From assembly GCA_001914405.1 (NCBI GenBank), contig MSDW01000001.1, positions 248,001-312,000 on the forward strand: DNA of 64,000 nucleotides. The letters are read 5' to 3'. The notes below the pieces were generated by a model. The model saw nothing but the letters and a program-made list of their open reading frames with translations. It was not told the DNA's origin and did no database searches. A program made the translations under genes and the position numbers. Shown here piece by piece: positions 20,837-34,229 of the stretch (position 1 is the first letter of the stretch; each line of letters begins with the position of its first letter). This DNA is from Candidatus Methanohalarchaeum thermophilum. Its GTDB lineage: Archaea > Halobacteriota > Methanonatronarchaeia > Methanonatronarchaeales > Methanonatronarchaeaceae.

Positions 20837-20850
20837 GTTAGTTGCGTTAC
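20837..20850 (+). promoter_or_regulatory. Methyltransferase-cassette box 1 (GTTA-N6-TTAC)
   Basis: GTTAGTTGCGTTAC lies 46 bases before the corrinoid-protein ATG. Related boxes lie at nearly the same distance before the other three corrinoid genes. The half-sites are inverted (GTTA/TAAC in the best copies), as for a dimeric regulator. Confidence 0.55.
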
Positions 20851-20895
20851 CTTTATTAACGGTGATTAATTTAAGTTTAGTTGTGGTTGAATGTA

Positions 20896-21552
20896 ATGAG
20901 TGATGATTTGTTTGGTGAGTTGACGGATGCGGTGGTTGCTGGTGATAAGGATCGGTGTCGTGGTTTGGCTGAGCAGGCTTTGGATGAGGGTGTTGATCCG
21001 TATAGGGCGTTGATGGAGGGGTGTGCTGAGGGTATGAATATTATGAGTGACAGATACGATGAGGGGGAGGCTTATGTGCCGGATATTTTGTTGTCGGCTG
21101 AAGCTCTCTACGAAGCAATGGATGTGCTGAAACCGCATATTGATGTTGAGGATACAGGAGTATCAGGGAAGGTTTTGTTAGGAGTGGTGGAAGGTGATAT
21201 ACATGACATAGGAAAGAATGTCTTGAAATCGATTTTTGATGCTGCCGGCTTCGACGTCATAGATTTAGGAAGGGATGTAAGGCCTGAACAGTTCCAGGAA
21301 TCTATTGAAAAAGAAAAACCTGACATACTTGGACTATCAGCGCTAATGACTACTTCGATGACTGGTATGCCTAAGATAATAGAAAACTTACAGAAAGCTG
21401 GGTTGAGGGAAAGAGTAAAGGTGATGGTTGGTGGGGCTCCAATTTCAGAGGATTATGCGGAAAAGATAGGAGCTGATGGTTACGCACCAAACGCACCACA
21501 AGCCAAAAAAACAGCCGAAAAACTACTAAAACAAAAGAAAAAGGAGGCATAA
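20896..21552 (+). CDS. Methyltransferase corrinoid protein, copy 1
   Basis: A 218-residue MtaC/MtbC-type protein. Residues 1-85 form the helical cap domain and ~90-215 the B12-binding Rossmann domain with the cobalt-ligand motif D101-x-H103-x-x-G106 (GDIHDIGKNVLKS), LGLSALMTTSM and VMVGGAPIS. It carries the methyl group between a substrate methyltransferase and coenzyme M methyltransferase. Copies 2 (25.1 kb) and 3 (28.9 kb) are essentially identical except at the ends. ATG at 20896 is preferred to an in-frame TTG at 20881. The methyltransferase gene follows after 4 bases, with GGAGG in this gene's last codons. Confidence 0.92.
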   Translation: MSDDLFGELTDAVVAGDKDRCRGLAEQALDEGVDPYRALMEGCAEGMNIMSDRYDEGEAYVPDILLSAEALYEAMDVLKPHIDVEDTGVSGKVLLGVVEGDIHDIGKNVLKSIFDAAGFDVIDLGRDVRPEQFQESIEKEKPDILGLSALMTTSMTGMPKIIENLQKAGLRERVKVMVGGAPISEDYAEKIGADGYAPNAPQAKKTAEKLLKQKKKEA

Positions 21553-21556
21553 ACAA

Positions 21557-22621
21557 ATGAAAGACGAGATGACATCGATGGAGAGATGGAAGGCTCTATT
21601 GAATGGTGATCCGGTTGATAGAATACCCGTAGTCCCATTTGCTTCTGGTTTTGATGCTAGTGTAAATGGTTATGAAACAATGGGTGATTTTTTTGCTAAA
21701 CCGGAGGTACAGGTCAAGTGTCAGAAGAGATCTAGAGAAATGATCGGCTATGATGAGCCTCCTCATTTAATGCCTCCAGGTTATTGGGCTGAACAATGGG
21801 GATCTGAGGTGGAACTTCCATATAGAAAAGCTATGTCATCTCCATCGGTTACAGATCCTGTAGTTAAAACGGCGGAGGATTTAGAAGAACTGGAAATTCC
21901 AGATCCAAAGGAGACTATGCAGGATTTTCATAAAATGGTGGAACTAGCAATCGAAGATGATTTATATCCATTGGTTACTATCTGGGGAGGTTGTATCTCG
22001 GCTGTAGCTCCGCATATGGTCAGTATTGAACAATTCATGAAATGGTTGAGAACCGATCCAGGATTGTGTGAAATGGCTTTAGATAAATCAGCTGAGTTTA
22101 CTATAAGCGTTGCTGAATGGTTTGCTGAAGATTTTGGCACAGATACTTGGATACCATGGGATCCTCTTCCTACTGATGCAAATGTATTGATTTCTGCTGA
22201 TAACTTTGGTGAGTTAGTTGTTCCTCGGTTAAAGAAGGTGCACCAAAAGGTTCTAGATCTTGGTTTGCCTATGTGGTTTACTCACTGGTGCTCAGATCAT
22301 AATAAAAACATTGAGGCTGGCCATGTGGATAAGATTCCTCATGGTGATCCTGGAGTAATCTATTTTGGTCCTGAGGTTGATGTTGAGCGTTCTGTTGAGT
22401 TATTTGGGGATGAACATATTATTACTGGGAATGTTGATCCTCCATCGGTTCAAAACAAGTCATATGAAGAAGTGTTACAACTTTGCAAGGAGAATATCGA
22501 GAAGGGGAAAGATTCTCCAAGAGGATACACCTTAACATGTGGCTGTGGAGTTCCTCCAAGGGCTCCTCCAATAAATGTTTATGCATTTGTTAAAGCTTCT
22601 AGGAAATACGGTAAATACTGA
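21557..22621 (+). CDS. UROD-family corrinoid methyltransferase, copy 1
   Basis: A 354-residue protein of the uroporphyrinogen decarboxylase superfamily to which MtaA, MtbA, CmuA and VdmB belong. The zinc ligands fit H243-W-C245 (FTHWCSDH) and C328 (LTCGCGVPP). It should transfer a methyl group to or from the cognate corrinoid protein encoded just upstream. Whether it acts on a methylated substrate or on coenzyme M cannot be told from sequence. The N-terminal ~20 residues and last ~95 are nearly identical to copy 3, while residues ~215-250 match copy 2 at the DNA level. A T-rich terminator-like run follows the stop. Confidence 0.85.
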   Translation: MKDEMTSMERWKALLNGDPVDRIPVVPFASGFDASVNGYETMGDFFAKPEVQVKCQKRSREMIGYDEPPHLMPPGYWAEQWGSEVELPYRKAMSSPSVTDPVVKTAEDLEELEIPDPKETMQDFHKMVELAIEDDLYPLVTIWGGCISAVAPHMVSIEQFMKWLRTDPGLCEMALDKSAEFTISVAEWFAEDFGTDTWIPWDPLPTDANVLISADNFGELVVPRLKKVHQKVLDLGLPMWFTHWCSDHNKNIEAGHVDKIPHGDPGVIYFGPEVDVERSVELFGDEHIITGNVDPPSVQNKSYEEVLQLCKENIEKGKDSPRGYTLTCGCGVPPRAPPINVYAFVKASRKYGKY

Positions 22622-22622
22622 A

Positions 22623-22660
22623 ACAAAAAGTATAAAAACCTTTTTATTTTTTTAAACTTG
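22623..22660 (+). terminator. T-rich terminator after cassette 1
   Basis: ATAAAAACC followed by TTTTTATTTTTTT occurs immediately after the stop; the same sequence follows cassette 3 (30.69 kb) and a similar one cassette 2. Archaeal termination commonly uses such U-rich tracts. Confidence 0.55.
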
Positions 22661-22700
22661 CATATAAAAAAGTAATGGTCTTATATAGATTAGCAGAAAG

Positions 22701-24839
22701 GTGGTTTTGATTTCTAAAATAATTAGAACTGTCTGCCAATCCTGTCATTCAAACTGTGGGGTAAAAGTTCATATAAAAGATAATAAGGTAATGAAATTAG
22801 AAGGCGATTCTGAAAATCCCTTTAGCGAGGGATATATCTGTCCAAAGGGCAGAAACGCATATAAAGTCGTAAACCATCCAGATCGGATTAAGCATCCTCT
22901 TAAGAAAAAAGAAGATGGTGAATGGAAAAAAATTAGTTGGGAAATTGCATTTGATGAGATAGCTGAAAAGCTTACTAAAATAAAAAGAGAACAAGGTTCA
23001 GAGTCAATAGCAACACTTTGCGGTGCTGGTGGACCCAGACAAACTGCTTATATTCTGCCATTATTAGCAAGAGCTCTTGGAACACCAAATCATATAGCCT
23101 CTGCCTCCCATGTGTGCGCAGTCCCCTCGATACTTGGGGACAAATTTACAGTAGGTCAGGGCCTAAGAAAGGAAGCAAACCCGGATTTCATTAATTCTAA
23201 ATGTATAGTTATCTGGGGAGGAAATCCCACGTTTTCTCATCCTCCTCTAAGTAAAAAAGTTATCCAAGCAAAGAAAGAAAACAACGCCAAACTTATAATA
23301 ATTGATCCAAAGAAAACTCCGTTAGCACAACAGGCAGATTTCTGGTTAAAGATAAGACCAGGTACTGACGATGCCTTGGCTTTAGGTTGGTTAAATATTT
23401 TAATAAATAAAGGACTCTACGATAAAAAATTTGTTTATAATTACTGCCAAGGGTTCGAGGAATTAAAGAATAGAGTTAAAAAGTACACTCCAAGAAAAGT
23501 AGAAGAAATCACTGATATACCTGCAAAAAAAGTCCAAGATTCTGTTGAAGTATACGCATCTAATAATCCAGCAGCTCTATATCAAAGAAATGCTATAGAA
23601 CATCATACTAATTCTGTTCAAACTACTAGAGCAATTGCTTGTTTAATAGCTCTTACAGGAAATATTGATATAAAAGGGGGAAATCTATTTACATCCAGTC
23701 CCCAAGGGTTTATATCTAGAACTCAAATTCGCGGATTTAAGAAAGAAAAATTTAAATCAGGGATAGAAGAAAAAAAGATAGGAAATAATTTATTCCCTCT
23801 AATGTCCTTTGTATATGGGCCTAAAGCATTTAAAACTATGTTAAACGACGAACCTTATCCCTTAAATGCAGTTTATGTTGCGGGAGGAAATCCAGTTGTC
23901 AATTGCCAAGACAGTAAATTAACAACTAGAGCACTCAAAAATCTAGATCTCTTGGTTGTAACAGATTACTTTAAGACTCCTACTGTTGAATTAGCAGATT
24001 ATGCTCTTCCAGCGGCTACATGGCTTGAAAGAAATGAATGCTGTGAAGCTAACTATGGTAATTTTATTACAGCTAGACAAAAAGCAGTTGAACCAAGAGG
24101 AGAAGCATTACCTGATTTGGAGATACTAATTAGGTTAGTTAAAAAATTACCTTGGGCAGATAGAGAGTTTATCTCTTGGGAAAGTATGAAAGAATTTAAC
24201 GACTGGAGACTAAAGGATATGGGACTAAATTTCAAAGACCTAAAAAATGAAAAGTTCATTGTAAAAGAAAAAAAATACAAGAAATATCAAAAAAATGGAT
24301 TTAAGACCCCAACTGAGAAAGTTGAGTTATACTCCTCTACTCTTGAAGAATATGGATACGATCCGTTACCCAATTACAAGGAACCTCCAGAAAGCCCAAT
24401 TAGTACTCCTGAGCTTTTAGATGAGTATCCACTGATTTTAGTAACGGGAAACAATAATATGTTTTATTATCATTCCCAATTTCAACAAGTTGATGAACTA
24501 AGAAAAAATAGACCCTATCCAGTGGCGGAGCTCCATCCAAGTACAGCGAAGAAAAGAAATATTTTAAACGGAGATTGGATAAAGATAGAAACTCCAAGGA
24601 AAAAAAATGAATCAGTACTATTCAAAACAGAACTAACCGAAAAAGTTAAAAAAGGAACATTGATTACTGATCATGGTCGATGGTTCCCTAGAGATCCTCC
24701 TCCTGAAAGAGGAGCATTTAGATCTAATATAAATGTCATTACAACAATTAAACCTCCAAGAGATAAAATTATAGGGTCCCTGCCACTAAAGGGTAGTCTT
24801 TGTAAAATTAAAAAAATTGATAAAAAGAATAAAAAATAA
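22701..24839 (+). CDS. Molybdopterin oxidoreductase (DMSO-reductase family)
   Basis: A 712-residue catalytic subunit. C12-x2-C15-x3-C19...C47 is the N-terminal [4Fe-4S] site; SASHVCAVPS places a Cys (C139) as the probable Mo/W ligand; VIWGGNP, VAGGNPVVNC and PAATWLERNE are pterin-binding blocks. The Cys ligand and overall form fit polysulfide/thiosulfate reductase, formate dehydrogenase or nitrate-reductase-like relatives. There is no Tat signal, so it is probably cytoplasmic, and no Fe-S or membrane subunit is adjacent, so its electron partner lies elsewhere. Start is uncertain among GTG 22701 and TTG 22707. It lies between cassettes 1 and 2, probably with its own promoter (CATATAAAA upstream). 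Confidence 0.85.
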   Translation: MVLISKIIRTVCQSCHSNCGVKVHIKDNKVMKLEGDSENPFSEGYICPKGRNAYKVVNHPDRIKHPLKKKEDGEWKKISWEIAFDEIAEKLTKIKREQGSESIATLCGAGGPRQTAYILPLLARALGTPNHIASASHVCAVPSILGDKFTVGQGLRKEANPDFINSKCIVIWGGNPTFSHPPLSKKVIQAKKENNAKLIIIDPKKTPLAQQADFWLKIRPGTDDALALGWLNILINKGLYDKKFVYNYCQGFEELKNRVKKYTPRKVEEITDIPAKKVQDSVEVYASNNPAALYQRNAIEHHTNSVQTTRAIACLIALTGNIDIKGGNLFTSSPQGFISRTQIRGFKKEKFKSGIEEKKIGNNLFPLMSFVYGPKAFKTMLNDEPYPLNAVYVAGGNPVVNCQDSKLTTRALKNLDLLVVTDYFKTPTVELADYALPAATWLERNECCEANYGNFITARQKAVEPRGEALPDLEILIRLVKKLPWADREFISWESMKEFNDWRLKDMGLNFKDLKNEKFIVKEKKYKKYQKNGFKTPTEKVELYSSTLEEYGYDPLPNYKEPPESPISTPELLDEYPLILVTGNNNMFYYHSQFQQVDELRKNRPYPVAELHPSTAKKRNILNGDWIKIETPRKKNESVLFKTELTEKVKKGTLITDHGRWFPRDPPPERGAFRSNINVITTIKPPRDKIIGSLPLKGSLCKIKKIDKKNKK

Positions 24840-25073
24840 AAAGCGAATTGGTAGAACATTTTCACGAGTTATAAGAAAATAGATAGAAAGGGATAGAACA
24901 GTTTTATTATGACTAAGAGATTGGATTAGATTTTAATATTTTTTAAATAGGTATCAAGAAATATATTTAAGGTTTTTGATTTAATCAACATATAGCATCC
25001 CGAAGAGGGAGAAAGAGGGTTCTATTTTCTTTTTATTGAAATGAAAATTCGAATTTTCTATAGGTTTAGGTTT

Positions 25074-25087
25074 GTTAGGTGCATAAC
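25074..25087 (+). promoter_or_regulatory. Methyltransferase-cassette box 2 (GTTA-N6-TAAC)
   Basis: GTTAGGTGCATAAC, a perfect GTTA/TAAC inverted repeat, 43 bases before the corrinoid ATG. The surrounding ~70 bases are identical to those at box 3. Confidence 0.6.
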
Positions 25088-25129
25088 TTTATTAGTTTTG
25101 TTTTGTATAGAGTACTTTATGGTGTGAAT

Positions 25130-25789
25130 ATGGGAGAAGAGGATTTGTTTGGTGAGTTGACGGATGCGGTGGTTGCTGGTGATAAGGATCGGTGTCGTGG
25201 TTTGGCTGAGCAGGCTTTGGATGAGGGTGTTGATCCGTATAGGGCGTTGATGGAGGGGTGTGCTGAGGGTATGAATATTATGAGTGACAGATACGATGAG
25301 GGGGAGGCTTATGTGCCGGATATTTTGTTGTCGGCTGAAGCTCTCTACGAAGCAATGGATGTGCTGAAACCGCATATTGATGTTGAGGATACAGGAGTAT
25401 CAGGGAAGGTTTTGTTAGGAGTGGTGGAAGGTGATATACATGACATAGGAAAGAATGTCTTGAAATCGATTTTTGATGCTGCCGGCTTCGACGTCATAGA
25501 TTTAGGAAGGGATGTAAGGCCTGAACAGTTCCAGGAATCTATTGAAAAAGAAAAACCTGACATACTTGGACTATCAGCGCTAATGACTACTTCGATGACT
25601 GGTATGCCTAAGATAATAGAAAACTTACAGAAAGCTGGGTTGAGGGAAAGAGTAAAGGTGATGGTTGGTGGGGCTCCAATTTCAGAGGATTATGCGGAAA
25701 AGATAGGAGCTGATGGTTACGCACCAAACGCACCGAGGGCTAAGGAAATAGCTGAGAAACTTCTAAAACAGAAAAGAGAGGAGGATTAA
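25130..25789 (+). CDS. Methyltransferase corrinoid protein, copy 2
   Basis: Same protein as copy 1 apart from the first few residues (MGEEDLFGEL) and the last ~20, where it matches copy 3 exactly (APRAKEIAEKLLKQKREED). It carries the cobalt-ligand motif GDIHDIG. GGTG sits just upstream of the ATG at 25130. It is followed after 4 bases by its methyltransferase gene, with GGAGG in the last codons. Confidence 0.92.
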   Translation: MGEEDLFGELTDAVVAGDKDRCRGLAEQALDEGVDPYRALMEGCAEGMNIMSDRYDEGEAYVPDILLSAEALYEAMDVLKPHIDVEDTGVSGKVLLGVVEGDIHDIGKNVLKSIFDAAGFDVIDLGRDVRPEQFQESIEKEKPDILGLSALMTTSMTGMPKIIENLQKAGLRERVKVMVGGAPISEDYAEKIGADGYAPNAPRAKEIAEKLLKQKREED

Positions 25790-25793
25790 GCAG

Positions 25794-26864
25794 ATGAGTG
25801 GCGAAATGACATCGATGGAAAGATGGAAAAATTTATTAGAGGGAAATCCGATTGACAGGGTAGCTGCGGGTTTTGATATATTAGGTCATACAGCTATTGT
25901 AAATGGTTATGAAGCCTTAGGAGATTTTTATGCTAAGCCAAAGGTTTCGATAGGATCTCAGTTGAAGGCAAAGGAGATGTATGGCTATGATCAACCTCCT
26001 ATAGTGATTTCACCTGGATATGGTGCAGGAGAGTGGGGTTCGGAGGTTGAACTACCTTATAGAAAAGCTATGGGTGCTCCATCTGTAACTGAATCTGTTG
26101 TTCAAAACAAAAAGGATCTTGAAGAGTTAGAAGTTCCTGATCCTAGTAATGCTCCGTATAGTGATGAATTTTATAGGACTGTTGAACTTGCTATTGAAGA
26201 AGATTCTTATCCTCTTGTTACAGTTTGGGGTGGATGCGTTTCATCTACTGCTCCAATGATAGTAGACATGGAAACTTTCATGAAGTGGATGAGGACTGAC
26301 CCAGATCTATGTGAGATGGCTCTAGATAAATCAGCTGAATTTGCAATAAAAACTGCAGAATGGCTTGTTGATGAATTTGGTGCAGATAATTGGATACCTG
26401 TTGATTGGTTACCTACCGATGCAAATGTATTAATAGATAGTGATACCTTTGGTGAGTTAGTTGTTCCTCGGTTAAAGAAGGTGCACCAAAAGGTTCTAGA
26501 TCTTGGTTTGCCTATGTGGTTTACTCACTGGTGCTCAGATCATACCCAAAACATTGAAGCCGGTCATATTGATGAAATCCCTATGGGTGATCCTGGAGCT
26601 GTCTTTTTTGGGCCCGAAGTTACTATGGAAGAAATAGTTAACAGGTTTGGTGACAGTAATATAGTAATTGGTAATGTTGATCCACCTAGCTTTCAAAATA
26701 AGCCCCAAGAAGAAGTTCTTAAGCTTTTAAAGGATAATATAGAAAGAGGAAAAGATTCACCAAAAGGATTTATTGCCTCATGTGGCTGTGAACTTCCACC
26801 CAGGACTCCTCCAGTTAATACCTATGCTATAGTGAAAGCTGCAAGAGAATACGGGCAATACTAA
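25794..26864 (+). CDS. UROD-family corrinoid methyltransferase, copy 2
   Basis: A 356-residue paralogue of copies 1 and 3 with the same zinc-ligand motifs (FTHWCSDH and CGCELPP). Residues ~20-200, the part that shapes the barrel entrance, diverge from the other two (AAGFDILGHTAIVNGYEALG). Bases ~26450-26545 are identical to copy 1, while the 3' third diverges from both, showing a mosaic history. It is probably the substrate-specific methyltransferase of cassette 2. Confidence 0.85.
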   Translation: MSGEMTSMERWKNLLEGNPIDRVAAGFDILGHTAIVNGYEALGDFYAKPKVSIGSQLKAKEMYGYDQPPIVISPGYGAGEWGSEVELPYRKAMGAPSVTESVVQNKKDLEELEVPDPSNAPYSDEFYRTVELAIEEDSYPLVTVWGGCVSSTAPMIVDMETFMKWMRTDPDLCEMALDKSAEFAIKTAEWLVDEFGADNWIPVDWLPTDANVLIDSDTFGELVVPRLKKVHQKVLDLGLPMWFTHWCSDHTQNIEAGHIDEIPMGDPGAVFFGPEVTMEEIVNRFGDSNIVIGNVDPPSFQNKPQEEVLKLLKDNIERGKDSPKGFIASCGCELPPRTPPVNTYAIVKAAREYGQY

Positions 26865-27757
26865 AACAAAAAATTTTTATAAAAACTTTTTTTCTTTTTT
26901 TAAGGTTTTTTGTAATGTTAAAAAAGGGAATAAAGATATTTAATCAGGTTAAAAAATATTTAAGATAGTTTTCTAATTTAAAATTAATTACTTAAATTAT
27001 CTTGGCATTATGTTTAGCTAGGGCTATTTATTGATATTATTGTCGTGGGTGGCTCAGAAACACTGGAAACTGATTTTGGATTCGTAAGCCTTTAACTGTT
27101 AAAAATTTTTGAAATATCTACAGAAAAAGGATACCTACTATGTATTCTGTTAATAACTTTAAAAGAAGAAATCAACTTTGTAAAGATGATAGTAGTTTTA
27201 ATAGGTTATATTATGGTTGTAATGGAAGACAAGTTGGTTAAACAGAAACATTTCTATTAAAATCTAAGAAATTGAAGGTAAGGTAATCAGGTTAATTAAC
27301 TAATAGAAAGGATAAACAACGGCAAGTGTTATCCTTCGTTTTAGATTCGTTTTTAATTCTCAAAATTTTTATTTTATTTAATTACCTATGTATGTTAGTT
27401 GCGTAACTTTTTTAACGATGTTATAGATATTAGTGTGCATGTGGTATACACATGGGATTCGAGTATTTGCTTGAGGCTTTTATAGCCTCATTGATGGGGG
27501 TAACTTAATCCTATGCTAATTATATTAATTTGACGACTAAGTTTAAAGGACTTAAGGATCCAGAATATCGGTTTAATCGCATAATATTGTATTTTGTTAT
27601 TTTTTGGTTAGTTTTTGATGTATTTATGTGTTTTTTGGGTTTAATCTATATTTAAATATTGTTTTGGTGGTTGTTTTTAATTTTAATTTGGTTTTATTAG
27701 GTTAAAATCCGAAAACTTTTTATAAGGCCTTTTATTTAATAAGTCTTGGGATTGAAT
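26865..27757. other. Long leader region with an orphan cassette box
   Basis: It contains a terminator-like T run after 26864, then ~800 bases without a supported gene. At 27394 there is a cassette-type box with no corrinoid gene behind it; a 17-codon reading MGFEYLLEAFIASLMGVT starts at 27452. Two TATA-like tracts (TTTTTATAAGG and TTTTATTTAATAAG) immediately precede the transporter gene. Confidence 0.45.
27394..27407 (+). promoter_or_regulatory. Orphan cassette box (GTTA-N6-TAAC)
   Basis: GTTAGTTGCGTAAC, followed by TTTTTTAACG as at box 1. The nearest gene downstream is the YaaH-type transporter, 350 bases away. It may control that gene through a long leader or mark a lost cassette. Confidence 0.45.
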
Positions 27758-28291
27758 ATGGGTGATTCTAATATTGGGAATCCGGTTATTATAGCGCTTT
27801 CTTCTTTTGCCACTGCTCTCCTCGTTTTGGGGATTGTTGAGGCTACTGGGATGCATAAGTTTGCTCCAGCTCTACTTTTTGCAGTCTTTTGGGCTGGTGT
27901 AGCTCAGATACCTACAGCCTTGATTTCTGCAATTAGGGGTGATGTATATGTGGGCTCAGTTGTTGGAACCTTTGGTAACTGGTTGCTTGCATTCTTTTTG
28001 CTGCAGTTTGTAAGTGCAACTGGAGCAGTTCCAGTAGATCCTGCAGCTGTAGGGCTTTTCTCTCTGATTTTAGTACCTGCAATTTTGATATTATGGATTC
28101 CAGCTATAAAAGCAGGAGATACACCGTTTAATGCGGCTTTTGCTGTCTTGACTGTAATGATCCTATTTTTGTCTTCAGGAGAGATATTAGGCAATCCAAT
28201 GTTTATAAAGATAGCAGGAGTATTAGCACTCATTGCAGCGGCAATAATATACTATGTGATGTATGAAAACACAATGCATCTATGTACATGA
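27758..28291 (+). CDS. GPR1/FUN34/YaaH-family small-solute transporter
   Basis: A 177-residue protein with six hydrophobic helices; GNPVIIALSSFATALLVLG near the N-terminus and AVFWAGVAQIPTALISAIRG fit the acetate/succinate (SatP) family. Such channels move small organic molecules across the membrane. Located among methyltransferase cassettes, it might import acetate for carbon assimilation or a methylated substrate; the sequence does not decide. ATG at 27758 is chosen over TTG 27746. Confidence 0.75.
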   Translation: MGDSNIGNPVIIALSSFATALLVLGIVEATGMHKFAPALLFAVFWAGVAQIPTALISAIRGDVYVGSVVGTFGNWLLAFFLLQFVSATGAVPVDPAAVGLFSLILVPAILILWIPAIKAGDTPFNAAFAVLTVMILFLSSGEILGNPMFIKIAGVLALIAAAIIYYVMYENTMHLCT

Positions 28292-28907
28292 TATTTAAAA
28301 ATTCAATTGATTAATATACGAAACAATTTTTACTTTTTTATTTTTTATAAAATTGGTTTAAATTACCTTCACTGAAGTTTTAGGTCATTCTAAAGGTATC
28401 ATTGTTTTGATATCTATTTTACTATAAAATCGATCCATGCTATACTTATCTTATTGCAAAAATAAAGATTTAATGGATAAAATGTTAATCCAAATGAGAA
28501 AATATTCATTGAGGGTTTTAAGAAGGATGTTTTTATGATTAATTTAAACTTTATCTTTAAATAATTAAATTTATTTAGGTTTTTAGTAAAGAATTAACTA
28601 TTTTATAGTTTTTGAAATTAGTTTAACGATAATTTAAGCTAGCATCGAAAGAACACACTTTGGATACAGGATTAAACCTGTTTTTAGGTCTCAAATCCTC
28701 TTATTTTCTCCGTACTTATAAATTTTTCTTTTTTTAGTAAAAATAAGATTTTTTATTTCATTAAATTTTGACATCAATTAAGATCTATGTCTTTTAGAGT
28801 TTTATCTTAAATTTGTTCCTTAAGTTAAAATTTTTGGATGTTTGAAAAACAACTTTGAGTCTTTTAATTTCATTTAATTTTCATTTTTAGGCACCCTTTC
28901 TAGGTTT
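28292..28907. other. AT-rich intergenic region
   Basis: No gene, hairpin end or repeat seen; T-runs follow the transporter gene. Its last bases lead into cassette 3's promoter. Confidence 0.5.
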
Positions 28908-28921
28908 GTTAGGTGCATAAC
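28908..28921 (+). promoter_or_regulatory. Methyltransferase-cassette box 3 (GTTA-N6-TAAC)
   Basis: GTTAGGTGCATAAC, 43 bases before the corrinoid ATG, identical in sequence and spacing to box 2. Confidence 0.6.
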
Positions 28922-28963
28922 TTTATTAGTTTTGTTTTGTATAGAGTACTTTATGGTGTGAAT

Positions 28964-29623
28964 ATGGGAGAAGAGGATTTGTTTGGTGAGTTGACGGATG
29001 CGGTGGTTGCTGGTGATAAGGATCGGTGTCGTGGTTTGGCTGAGCAGGCTTTGGATGAGGGTGTTGATCCGTATAGGGCGTTGATGGAGGGGTGTGCTGA
29101 GGGTATGAATATTATGAGTGACAGATACGATGAGGGGGAGGCTTATGTGCCGGATATTTTGTTGTCGGCTGAAGCTCTCTACGAAGCAATGGATGTGCTG
29201 AAACCGCATATTGATGTTGAGGATACAGGAGTATCAGGGAAGGTTTTGTTAGGAGTGGTGGAAGGTGATATACATGACATAGGAAAGAATGTCTTGAAAT
29301 CGATTTTTGATGCTGCCGGCTTCGACGTCATAGATTTAGGAAGGGATGTAAGGCCTGAACAGTTCCAGGAATCTATTGAAAAAGAAAAACCTGACATACT
29401 TGGACTATCAGCGCTAATGACTACTTCGATGACTGGTATGCCTAAGATAATAGAAAACTTACAGAAAGCTGGGTTGAGGGAAAGAGTAAAGGTGATGGTT
29501 GGTGGGGCTCCAATTTCAGAGGATTATGCGGAAAAGATAGGAGCTGATGGTTACGCACCAAACGCACCGAGGGCTAAGGAAATAGCTGAGAAACTTCTAA
29601 AACAGAAAAGAGAGGAGGATTAA
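28964..29623 (+). CDS. Methyltransferase corrinoid protein, copy 3
   Basis: Identical in protein sequence to copy 2, including the leader MGEEDLFGEL and the tail KREED. The upstream ~60 bases are identical as well, so the duplicated or converted block includes the promoter. Cobalt-ligand motif GDIHDIG. It is followed by a third, different methyltransferase. Confidence 0.92.
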   Translation: MGEEDLFGELTDAVVAGDKDRCRGLAEQALDEGVDPYRALMEGCAEGMNIMSDRYDEGEAYVPDILLSAEALYEAMDVLKPHIDVEDTGVSGKVLLGVVEGDIHDIGKNVLKSIFDAAGFDVIDLGRDVRPEQFQESIEKEKPDILGLSALMTTSMTGMPKIIENLQKAGLRERVKVMVGGAPISEDYAEKIGADGYAPNAPRAKEIAEKLLKQKREED

Positions 29624-29627
29624 GCAG

Positions 29628-30692
29628 ATGAGTGGCGAAATGACATCGATGGAAAGATGGAAGGCTCTATTGAATGGTGATCCGGTTGATAGAATACCCG
29701 TAGTTCCATTTGCTATGGGTCAGTCGGCTATAGTGCATGGTTATGAGAATTTAGGGGATTTTTATTCGAAGCCTGAGGTGAGTGTTAAGTGTCAGCTTAG
29801 GGCAATGGAAATGTTTGGGTATGATCAGCCTCCAATTTTTTTATCACCAACTTATAAAGGAGCTACCTTATTTGGTTCTGAAGTTGAATATCCTTATCGA
29901 CCTGCACAGGGTTCTGTTACGGTAACTAAACCTGTAGCAGAAACTCCAGAGGATCTTGAAAGCCTTGAGATACCAGATCCTAGAGGAGATGAAAAACTTC
30001 ATAACATGATTGAGATAGCTTTAGATAACGATGTTGTCCCTATAGTGTATATGACAGGTGGGGCTGTTTCCTGTACCGCTCCAATAATTGTAGGAATAGA
30101 AACTTTCATGAAATGGATGAGGACTGACCCAGATCTATGTGAGGTAGCTCTAGATAAAACTGCAGAATTTGCTAAAAGAAAAGCAGAATGGCTTGTTGAT
30201 GAATTTGGTGCAGATAATTTAGTGCCGTGGACATCTTATCCAGCTGATGCAAATGTATTGATTTCTGCCGAAAACTTTGGAGAACTAGTACTACCCAAGG
30301 TTAAAAAACATCATCAAAATCTTCTTGACTTAGGTTTCTCTTCGATATTAGCACATTGGTGCTCAGATCATAATAAAAACATTGACGCTGGTCATATAGA
30401 TAAGATTCCTCATGGTGATCCTGGAGTAATGTATTTTGGTCCTGAGGTTGATGTTGAGCGTTCTGTTGAGTTATTTGGGGATGAACATATTATTACTGGG
30501 AATGTTGATCCTCCATCGGTTCAAAACAAGTCATATGAAGAAGTGTTACAACTTTGCAAGGAGAATATCGAGAAGGGGAAAGATTCTCCAAGAGGATACA
30601 CCTTAACATGCGGTTGCGAACTTCCTCCAAGGGCTCCTCCAATAAATGTTTATGCATTTGTTAAAGCTTCTAGGAAATACGGTAAATACTGA
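29628..30692 (+). CDS. UROD-family corrinoid methyltransferase, copy 3
   Basis: A 354-residue paralogue. It starts like copy 2 (MSGEMTSMERWK) then matches copy 1 (ALLNGDPVDRIPVVPFA), diverges over ~30-235 (SPTYKGATLFGSEVEYPYRP), and from ~250 is again nearly identical to copy 1. Zinc motifs read LAHWCSDH and CGCELPP. Divergence in the first two thirds suggests a different methyl donor using the same corrinoid partner. A T-rich terminator like that of cassette 1 follows. Confidence 0.85.
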   Translation: MSGEMTSMERWKALLNGDPVDRIPVVPFAMGQSAIVHGYENLGDFYSKPEVSVKCQLRAMEMFGYDQPPIFLSPTYKGATLFGSEVEYPYRPAQGSVTVTKPVAETPEDLESLEIPDPRGDEKLHNMIEIALDNDVVPIVYMTGGAVSCTAPIIVGIETFMKWMRTDPDLCEVALDKTAEFAKRKAEWLVDEFGADNLVPWTSYPADANVLISAENFGELVLPKVKKHHQNLLDLGFSSILAHWCSDHNKNIDAGHIDKIPHGDPGVMYFGPEVDVERSVELFGDEHIITGNVDPPSVQNKSYEEVLQLCKENIEKGKDSPRGYTLTCGCELPPRAPPINVYAFVKASRKYGKY

Positions 30693-30722
30693 AACAAAAA
30701 GTATAAAAACCTTTTTATTTTT

Positions 30723-30770
30723 TATTCAGTCTGTATTTTATGTTTTATTTAGTCTGTATTTTATGTTTTA
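30723..30770 (+). repeat. Tandem duplication of ~24 bases
   Basis: AGTCTGTATTTTATGTTTTA occurs twice in direct succession just after the cassette 3 terminator. It may be a replication-slippage product. Confidence 0.7.
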
Positions 30771-30787
30771 GGGTTTATTTTTGTTTT

Positions 30788-30801
30788 GTTAGGTGATAAA
30801 C
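30788..30801 (+). promoter_or_regulatory. Methyltransferase-cassette box 4 (degenerate)
   Basis: GTTAGGTGATAAAC, 49 bases before the fourth corrinoid ATG; the second half-site is shifted relative to boxes 2 and 3. Confidence 0.45.
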
Positions 30802-30850
30802 CTTTTATTTAGTTTTTACATATTAGTGTATGGGAGGTTATCTATTTCAG

Positions 30851-31542
30851 ATGTCAGATGAAGATATCTTGGAGGATTTGAAGAAAGCCGTGGTAGAGGG
30901 TGATGATGACCTTGCTAAGAAAAAAGCTGAGAGGAAGTTATTGATGCAGGTATAGATCCTTACAAGGCTATAATGGAGGGATGCGGCAAAGGAATGAATA
31001 TTGTTAGTGATAAATACGATAAAAATGAGTATTTTGTTCCAGAGGTTCTGGTATCTGCTAGAGCTATGGAAGCAGCGGTTAAAGTATTAAGATCTCATAT
31101 TTCTGTTGAAGAGGCGGAAGAATCTGGAAAAGTTGTTTTAGCTGTAGTTGAAGTAGACGTACACGATATAGGGAAGAATTTAGTCAAGATCCTCCTCGAT
31201 TCTGCTGGCTTTGAGATCTTGGATCTGGGTAAGGATGTTTCTAGCTCTAAATTGATAGAAACCATTAGGGAGGAAAAACCCCAGATTGTTGGTTTATCTA
31301 CTCTGATGAGCCCAACATTAGAGATTATGGAAGATACTCTGAAGGCTTTTGAGGATAAAGGAGTTAGAGATAAAGTTAAAGTTATGGTTGGTGGAGCTAT
31401 TGTAGATGAAGATTTTGCTGGTGAGGTTGGCGCTGACGGTTACGCCGAAGATGCCTCTAAAGCCGTTGGTTTAGCAGAAAAATTAATGGGAGGTGAGGAA
31501 TTTGAAGCCCAAGGATCGTGTAAAAGCTGCAATACAGAATAG
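30851..31542 (+). pseudogene. Fourth corrinoid protein gene, frameshifted
   Basis: MSDEDILEDLKKAVVEGDDD opens from the ATG at 30851. A 2-base AG duplication in GCTGAGAGGAAGTT (about 30930) shifts the frame; the remainder from VIDAGIDPYKAIMEGCGKGM runs open to 31542 and keeps the cobalt-ligand motif DVHDIGKN, LGLSTLMSPTL-type and VMVGGAIVD motifs plus a C-terminal CKSC. It is clearly divergent from copies 1-3. It could be a recent mutation, an assembly error or a functional frameshift. The following gene starts inside its 3' end. Confidence 0.75.
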
Positions 31543-32578
31543 AGAACCTGATAGAGTTCCTGTTACTGTACTTGGTAGTTCTGCTGACTATAAATTAGCT
31601 GGAGTCGATTTTGAGGAAGCAATGATGGACCCAGACCTAGTTGTAGAATGTATTGACAAAAAACAGGAAATTTTCCCAGATAACGATATTATTCAGCCTA
31701 TAGCACCAGGTCAGATGGTTTCGGCTTGGAAAGCGATGGGAGCAGAAGCTGATATTCTCTCTACTGGATGGTTTGATGTAACTGAACCCGGAGTAGAAAA
31801 TAAAGAGGAATTAGAGGCTCTAGACTTCGATAAAGTTCTCGAAAATGTATTGGAGAGCCCCTTATTTCAAACTGGTTTAGAGGCTATCGAAAGAATCAGC
31901 GATAGATATGGGGACGAATACCTGATTTCTAGTGCTTGGGAATCAGGTTGGACTACTGCAGGAAGAGTAATAGATACAGAGAAGCAGATGATCTTGCTTA
32001 AAGACGAACCCGAGTTCGTGAAAGAACTTGCTAATTTTATGAACCAGATTTGGATAGAAGCAGGCAGAAAATATATAGAAGCAGGCTTAGATATGGTAAT
32101 GACTCCTGACCCAAACTCAATGACAGCTTTGATCTCACCTGATATCTATAAGGAAGTTGTTTGGCCATTACAGATGGAGATGGGTAAAGACATTAAAGAA
32201 TCTGGAGCTTACTGGCACCTCCACATATGTGGTGATGCAGAACCTCTAGTTGAACTAATTGGGGAAACAGGGTGCGATATGTTTAGTTTCAACCAAAGAA
32301 CTAGGATGTCAGAAGTAGTTAGAAAAGTAGGTGACTGGGTAACCTCATGTGGAAATGTCAACCCTGGAAGAATACTAAGAGGAAATCCAGAAGAAATAAA
32401 AGAGTTAGCCAAAGAATGCATCAGAATAGCTGCTCCTGGAGGAGGCTACATACTAATGCCAGGATGCGACACAGCAGAAAACACCCCTAAAGAAAACTAT
32501 CAAGCCCTCATAGATGCAGCACTAGAACATGGTGAATACCCAATTGATCGAGTAACGGGAAAAACGAGCGTAGAATAA
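31502..32578 (+). CDS. UROD-family corrinoid methyltransferase, copy 4 (divergent)
   Basis: About 358 residues. The zinc-ligand motif is the classical HLHICGDAEPL with a later MPGCDTAENTP, closer to MtaA/MtbA-type enzymes than the three neighbours with HWCSD. This may therefore be the coenzyme M methyltransferase shared by the cassettes, while copies 1-3 act on substrates; that is inference. GGAGGTGA at 31489-31496 suits the TTG at 31502 better than the GTG at 31493. It overlaps the preceding corrinoid gene by about 40 bases. The 3' end is strongly A/C-rich. Confidence 0.85.
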   Translation: MKPKDRVKAAIQNREPDRVPVTVLGSSADYKLAGVDFEEAMMDPDLVVECIDKKQEIFPDNDIIQPIAPGQMVSAWKAMGAEADILSTGWFDVTEPGVENKEELEALDFDKVLENVLESPLFQTGLEAIERISDRYGDEYLISSAWESGWTTAGRVIDTEKQMILLKDEPEFVKELANFMNQIWIEAGRKYIEAGLDMVMTPDPNSMTALISPDIYKEVVWPLQMEMGKDIKESGAYWHLHICGDAEPLVELIGETGCDMFSFNQRTRMSEVVRKVGDWVTSCGNVNPGRILRGNPEEIKELAKECIRIAAPGGGYILMPGCDTAENTPKENYQALIDAALEHGEYPIDRVTGKTSVE

Positions 32579-33719: not shown

Positions 33720-34229
33720 ATGGATCTTGGTTTGGTTTTTGGGAAGAATTGGGGTCATAGAATAATTATTTTTTTAACTATCTTGATTTATGGGTATCTT
33801 TTTTTGAAGAATCCTAATGAAGCTAAGAAAGGACTTTCAAGTGGTTTAAAGACTTTTATTAGTTTATTTACTTTGATTGTTGCTGCATTACTTTTGTCAA
33901 GTGCTATTGAAGTATTATTACCGGTTTCATTAGTTCAAGAATATTTGGGAGTAGAAGCAGGAGTAAAAGGATCAATAACAGGAGGACTGATAGGAGGTAT
34001 ATTACAAGGAGGTCCGTTTGCTGCATATCCAATTATAAGAACATTAAACAAAGAAGGAGCCAGTATAGCTGCAGTAATATCTATGATAATAGGCTACAAT
34101 GCAATAGGAACTGGAAGAATACCCTATGGATTGGCCTTCTTCGATCCAGAAATCGTAGGCATAAGAATAATCGCAGGAACACTCCTGACAATACTAGCAG
34201 CAATAGGACTATACTTAATCTTTGGATAA
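33720..34229 (+). CDS. Predicted permease (DUF318/COG0701-like)
   Basis: A 169-residue membrane protein with four to five helices. LVQEYLGVEAGVKGSITGG, then GGILQGGPFAAYPIIRTLNKEGAS and GYNAIGTGRIPYGLAFF match one half of permeases of the COG0701 type. Full-length members are about twice as long, so it may act as a dimer. The substrate is unknown. It is a single gene, with G/T-rich start and A/C-rich end. Confidence 0.65.
   Translation: MDLGLVFGKNWGHRIIIFLTILIYGYLFLKNPNEAKKGLSSGLKTFISLFTLIVAALLLSSAIEVLLPVSLVQEYLGVEAGVKGSITGGLIGGILQGGPFAAYPIIRTLNKEGASIAAVISMIIGYNAIGTGRIPYGLAFFDPEIVGIRIIAGTLLTILAAIGLYLIFG

Follow-up and report, generated by a model that had tools for sequence, protein, structure and literature searches.

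A near-constant corrinoid carrier paired with diverging URO-D-fold methyltransferases in six gene cassettes of Candidatus Methanohalarchaeum thermophilum

A 64,000-nucleotide (nt) stretch of the genome of Candidatus Methanohalarchaeum thermophilum (contig MSDW01000001.1, positions 248,001 to 312,000; hereafter the window) contains four corrinoid/URO-D gene pairs on the + strand (20896–32578). Three of these pairs, here called cassettes, belong to a genome-wide set of six in which the corrinoid carrier is nearly constant while the methyltransferase that follows it diverges, most of all around its predicted active site. The best overall explanation, towards which we lean from the sequences, is that every cassette would work on its own as an entry point for methyl groups into methyl-reducing methanogenesis, probably with a different donor for each enzyme. 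The genes of the four pairs are as follows.

20896–21552, + strand: corrinoid carrier, cassette 1 (218 residues; PF02310 and PF02607; TIGR02370, 220.6 bits)
21557–22621, + strand: URO-D-fold methyltransferase, cassette 1 (354 residues; PF01208, 1.3e-36; zinc triad H243-x-C245...C330)
25130–25789, + strand: corrinoid carrier, cassette 2 (219 residues)
25794–26864, + strand: URO-D-fold methyltransferase, cassette 2 (356 residues; PF01208, 4.5e-36)
28964–29623, + strand: corrinoid carrier, cassette 3 (219 residues)
29628–30692, + strand: URO-D-fold methyltransferase, cassette 3 (354 residues; PF01208, 8.8e-38)
30851–31542, + strand: divergent corrinoid protein gene, cassette 4, frameshifted (open part 30973–31542)
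31493–32578, + strand: URO-D-fold methyltransferase, cassette 4 (361 residues; PF01208, 1.5e-51; HICG zinc motif)

The window cassettes match their families beyond chance, with E-values of 1e-36 to 1e-52 for PF01208 and 9e-31 for PF02310, and the carrier of cassette 1 passes the cut-off of TIGR02370 (methyltransferase cognate corrinoid protein; 215.3 bits). In cassettes 1–3, the methyltransferase gene starts 4 nt after its carrier gene. A preliminary description of the window had reported near-identical carriers in three cassettes, each followed by a URO-D methyltransferase, and both observations were confirmed. Genome-wide, 15 URO-D matches were counted, and three more cassettes of this kind, all with the same carrier, were found at C1:90379, C1:1139786 and C1:1273080. 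The carrier of cassette 1 is 96–100% identical to the other five, and the three window carriers fall within the same range among themselves. Methyltransferase 2 has 66% and methyltransferase 3 has 71% identity to copy 1, and identity to copy 1 within the whole set is 60–71%.

Synonymous sites point to homogenised carrier genes and to old, mosaic methyltransferases. Carriers 1–3 agree completely (100%) over a 300-nt core, and cassettes 2 and 3 have 762 identical nt in common, starting upstream of the carrier gene. Over carrier residues 1–195, the proportion of synonymous differences (pS) is 0.00–0.01 among the window copies and 0.12–0.32 with or between the dispersed copies, and that of the methyltransferase segments is mostly 0.5–0.9. 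Since carriers 2 and 3 show no synonymous difference and have identical upstream DNA, simple purifying selection on the protein was rejected as the cause of their identity. Methyltransferases 1 and 3 are nearly identical over residues 251–354 (pS 0.05–0.08), a segment that, judging from this pattern, is shared through gene conversion. The preliminary description had the enzymes differing mainly in their first ~200 residues; this holds for copies 1 and 3 (residues 201–354 are 86% identical), but not for copies 2 and 3, where identity is even at about 61% and 62%. A second case of a constant carrier is found in the MttB family (non-pyrrolysine), at L050:9028-11144 and L048:11199-14921 (C1:635k and C1:853k), where the carriers are identical over 671 of 671 nt and the adjacent partners are 60% and 69% identical. 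In Methanosarcinales, mtmB/mtmC and mtbB/mtbC evolve in concert, and gene conversion likewise keeps their carrier paralogues alike (PMC6053082); there, however, the methyltransferases are homogenised as well, whereas in the cassettes the carrier is and the methyltransferase diverges.

Variation among the six paralogues peaks at the predicted active site, where 18 orthologues vary least. The six cassette methyltransferases were aligned with E. coli HemE and with 18 orthologues that occur as single copies in Methanosarcinaceae. Active-site columns were those surrounding the positions that align with the catalytic residues of HemE (R27, D77, Y154, T209 and H327, as known from the URO-D literature); the width of these surroundings was not preset, but the outcome is the same for widths from 3 to 8. 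Among the six paralogues, 18 of 45 active-site columns and 39 of the 300 other columns show at least four different residues (p=4e-5); the same count for the orthologues gives 0 of 45 and 39 of 303. Divergence within and outside the predicted active site is 0.50 versus 0.38 for the cassettes, and 0.12 versus 0.23 for the orthologues. The observed contrast was matched by one of 353 shifted and 76 of 20,000 random placements.

The case for different donors rests mainly on this variation, since a site that varies among paralogues and is conserved among orthologues favors different substrates over isoenzymes; it thus lends indirect support to the earlier proposal that copies 1–3 act on different donors. 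The alternative, that all six accept one donor and are distinguished by regulation, salt or affinity, appears unlikely to us. Methanosarcina has several mtaCB operons that are all for methanol, and the 60–71% identity to copy 1 and the leader sequences, which vary from cassette to cassette, would fit isoenzymes. Multi-copy sets of substrate methyltransferase (MT1) and carrier with gene conversion are also known in Methanosarcinales (PMC6053082). Isoenzymes, however, should keep their active site, which here is the part that varies most.

The zinc ligands H243, C245 and C330 are kept in all six cassette methyltransferases and, in the alignment, in copy 4, MtaA, MtpA and MtsD/F/H; the triad aligns with that of MtaA (4ay7) and of M. 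acetivorans MtaA-type proteins. Copy 4 does carry the HxCG site noted earlier (HICG), but it does not set this copy apart, because copies 1–3 (HWCS) keep the triad as well and the sole change is in the residue that follows the cysteine. The closest solved structure is MtaA 4ay7 (1.5e-19), with CdmB at E=0.007. Against the MtaA/MtbA profiles (cut-offs NF040654 400, NF041608 600, TIGR01463 235), copies 1–3 reach at most 83 bits for TIGR01463 and 66 bits for NF040654. The best matches of the cassette carriers include the carrier domains of MtsD/F/H (47–48%).

The statement in the preliminary description that methanogens usually use a non-URO-D MT1 omits the URO-D donor enzymes already known, namely MtsA, MtpA, MtsD/F/H and MtoB (PMC7374477, PMC10762971, PMC8630106). 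MtsA is known to perform both half-reactions, from donor to corrinoid and from corrinoid to coenzyme M (Tallant et al. 2001, as cited in PMC10762971). Given this double function and the conserved zinc triad, an MtsA-like mode is the most economical reading, and we favor the view that the cassette enzymes are MtsA/MtpA-like and would transfer methyl groups from different small donors onto one carrier. Like MtsA/MtsB of Methanosarcina barkeri and MtpC-MtpA-MtpP of M. acetivorans, the cassettes consist of a URO-D enzyme beside its own corrinoid protein, without a separate MT1; moreover, the corrinoid-then-methyltransferase order is that of mtpCA, and MtpA has the same zinc triad. In contrast to both systems, the cassettes lie in another clade, lack an adjacent major facilitator superfamily (MFS) gene and have one homogenised carrier. 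In the tree, which did not contain M. barkeri MtsA, a 100/99 branch separates the cassette enzymes from MtpA, which groups instead with the C1:655832 protein of the same genome. MtsD, MtsF and MtsH also have the corrinoid part ahead of the URO-D part, and are several paralogues with overlapping methyl-sulfide substrates (PMC7374477), but they are fused, whereas the cassettes are separate genes with URO-D parts in a different clade.

The six cassette methyltransferases form a single clade (support 100/100). Their nearest relatives outside it are a single-copy Methanosarcinaceae URO-D protein and two carrier-paired proteins of the same genome, and the 100/99 branch parts the clade together with these relatives from MtaA, MtbA, MtpA, MtsD/F/H and copy 4. 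The Methanosarcinaceae protein (G383 C1:987383) has the same zinc triad as the cassettes; its counterpart in G022 is 36% identical to copy 1 in a single comparison. We take G383 to be M. acetivorans and G022 to be M. evestigatum. In contrast to the cassettes, this protein usually occurs in one copy, often without an adjacent carrier, and keeps its active site between species. Relatives that adjoin corrinoid genes are h_L005 and h_L013 of the same genome and the orthologue in G060, which is directly followed by a corrinoid gene (L142:7227-9052). A RamA-activase-like protein adjoins the G383 orthologue (L140:10193-11884), and in a further Methanosarcinaceae genome a DUF7479 protein and an HMPTM-type radical SAM enzyme come after a URO-D protein (L091:7419-10593). 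A whole-genome search found no relatives in the sister genus or in the other family of the class. Contig scans with queries A1 and A2 returned no relatives, which the whole-genome search alone recovered, and plasmid records gave distant matches only (23–26%).

The rest of the genome encodes Mcr, an MtaA equivalog at C1:825958 (NF040654, 488 bits, over the cut-off of 400) and two RACo-type activases (C1:849187 and C1:861887); no MtrH was found in it. Two PylS proteins exceed the curated cut-off, a number reported only for HMET1 and M. luminyensis (PMC9071458). With Mcr present, MtrH absent and the kinship of the genome, this makes HMET1, an obligately methyl-reducing halophile, the most likely host. 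There are five MTTB-family proteins, two with an in-frame TAG. The usual partners of corrinoid proteins, which the preliminary description had found missing, are thus absent locally but present genome-wide as MtaB, the five MTTB-family proteins and pyrrolysine methylamine enzymes. Its reading was to fall if MtaB-type genes elsewhere proved to be the real partners. MtaB was rejected in this role as it has its own adjacent corrinoid gene, and the MTTB-family and methylamine enzymes likewise have their own corrinoid genes nearby.

In the proposed mechanism, the reductively activated Co(I) carrier would receive a methyl group from a small donor held by its partner methyltransferase. Transfer of the methyl group to coenzyme M would follow, catalysed at that enzyme's own zinc site (as in MtsA) or by the MtaA of the genome, and methyl-coenzyme M would be reduced to methane by Mcr; the two RACo-type activases could reactivate the carrier. 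The six methyltransferases would have differing substrate pockets and hence probably differing donors, and gene conversion would keep the carrier near-constant, so that a new methyltransferase could be added without altering the rest of the pathway. We infer donor identity, the catalysis of both half-reactions by one enzyme and the interchangeability of the carriers. Methylated sulfur compounds or short methylated acids are the leading guess for the donors; halides and methoxyarenes, also on the earlier list, seem less likely from the sequences. One membrane protein gene in the window bears on this point.

27746–28291, + strand: GPR1/FUN34/YaaH membrane protein, between cassettes 2 and 3 (PF01184, 1.3e-13)

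Its product is possibly a transporter of a small carboxylic methyl donor. Elsewhere (L046:8506-10839, C1:654k), a corrinoid gene, a YaaH-family membrane protein and an MtpA-like URO-D protein lie in a row; this YaaH protein, 28% identical to the one in the window, may replace the MFS transporter MtpP. Together, the two YaaH proteins may point to small carboxylic compounds, for instance methylthiopropionate, as donors. A corrinoid/URO-D/MFS gene set on contig C4 (L051:12702-15730) was considered as a true MtpCAP system, and the gene order fits; however, it was rejected because H-x-H replaces H-x-C in its URO-D protein, which is not placed with MtpA in the tree.

The combination of a fixed carrier with a varying pocket suggests that new food molecules could be plugged into a single methane pathway. 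Tentatively, and with less assurance than for the modules themselves, we propose a general constant-carrier, variable-methyltransferase system in which conversion would spread one carrier, pockets would diversify and several donors, some unrecognised as methanogenic, would be used, with the same arrangement in the MttB family. If so, a methyl-reducing methanogen could broaden its diet by altering the first enzyme alone, with the carrier unchanged. The cassettes would then offer a direct route to unrecognised methanogenic methyl donors in hypersaline lakes, and would separate carrier docking with many partners from the specificity-setting pocket, traits that usually change together.

Several points weigh against different donors for self-contained modules. 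Substrate transfer by homology is unsafe, because MtaA, MtpA and MtsD/F/H all lie outside the clade of the cassette methyltransferases; the 762-nt identical repeats could be misjoined in a draft assembly; the active-site positions come from the HemE alignment; an AlphaFold2 model built from the four window sequences was poor (pLDDT 56); and the YaaH hint to a substrate is a single gene. The cassettes might also not be catabolic MT1s at all and serve methyl-sulfur or methyl-selenium turnover, detoxification or biosynthesis, which we consider improbable. Type 1 mlp clusters, found in some methanogens, similarly combine a single corrinoid protein with more than one URO-D methyltransferase (PMC10418091), but have three different Mlps in the same cluster and an adjacent Ram-type activase. 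Each cassette instead has one enzyme with its own carrier copy, no activase adjoins the cassettes within the window (the two in the genome being those given above), and six copies point to a bulk pathway.

A slightly smaller chance is given to O-demethylases or haloalkane dehalogenases of the MtoB/MtvB/CdmB kind. URO-D MT1s for methoxyarenes and chloromethane do exist (PMC8630106, PMC13222342), and the diverged pair MtoB1/MtoB2 (57% similar) of Methermicoccus uses one carrier, MtoC (PMC8630106), as in the cassettes. The cassette enzymes, however, are much closer to MtaA than to CdmB, about 70 residues shorter than the latter (354 versus 429), and keep the zinc triad; zinc is missing from CdmB and from the O-demethylase of Moorella, although some other O-demethylases do contain it (PMC13222342). 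MtoB is closest to CdmB (PMC13222342), with which the comparison was made here. Least probable is that copies 1–3, or 4, are coenzyme M methylases serving carriers loaded by other methyltransferases. Such methylases have the same fold and zinc triad, but an MtaA equivalog is already in the genome, all copies score under the MtaA/MtbA cut-offs, each cassette has its own carrier and no adjacent MT1, and six enzymes with diverging pockets would be ill-suited to one acceptor.

Methyltransferase 4 is 24–26% identical to copies 1–3. Its carrier gene, about 51% identical to the carriers of cassettes 1–3, has a one-base frameshift near 30930 that leaves only a 189-residue fragment open, and is either a pseudogene or affected by a sequencing error. 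The earlier suggestion that copy 4 passes methyl groups to coenzyme M (as an MT2) was rejected: the enzyme scores 161 bits for TIGR01463 (mtaA_cmuA; cut-off 235) and 118 for NF040654 (cut-off 400), lies off the MtaA/MtbA branch in the tree and has the frameshifted carrier, and the MtaA equivalog is elsewhere.

One further gene lies between the cassettes.

22701–24839, + strand: molybdopterin oxidoreductase (FdhA/PhsA-like), between cassettes 1 and 2 (PF00384, 7e-57)

It scores 383 bits for the Fdh-alpha profile, under the cut-off of 666, and no obvious partner subunit is among the neighbouring open reading frames listed; a tie to the methyltransferase cassettes is unproven. Downstream of the cassettes, an ArsP_1-like permease (33720–34229) of only 169 residues covers profile positions 14–135 of 294 and is probably a fragment or a half-size protein.

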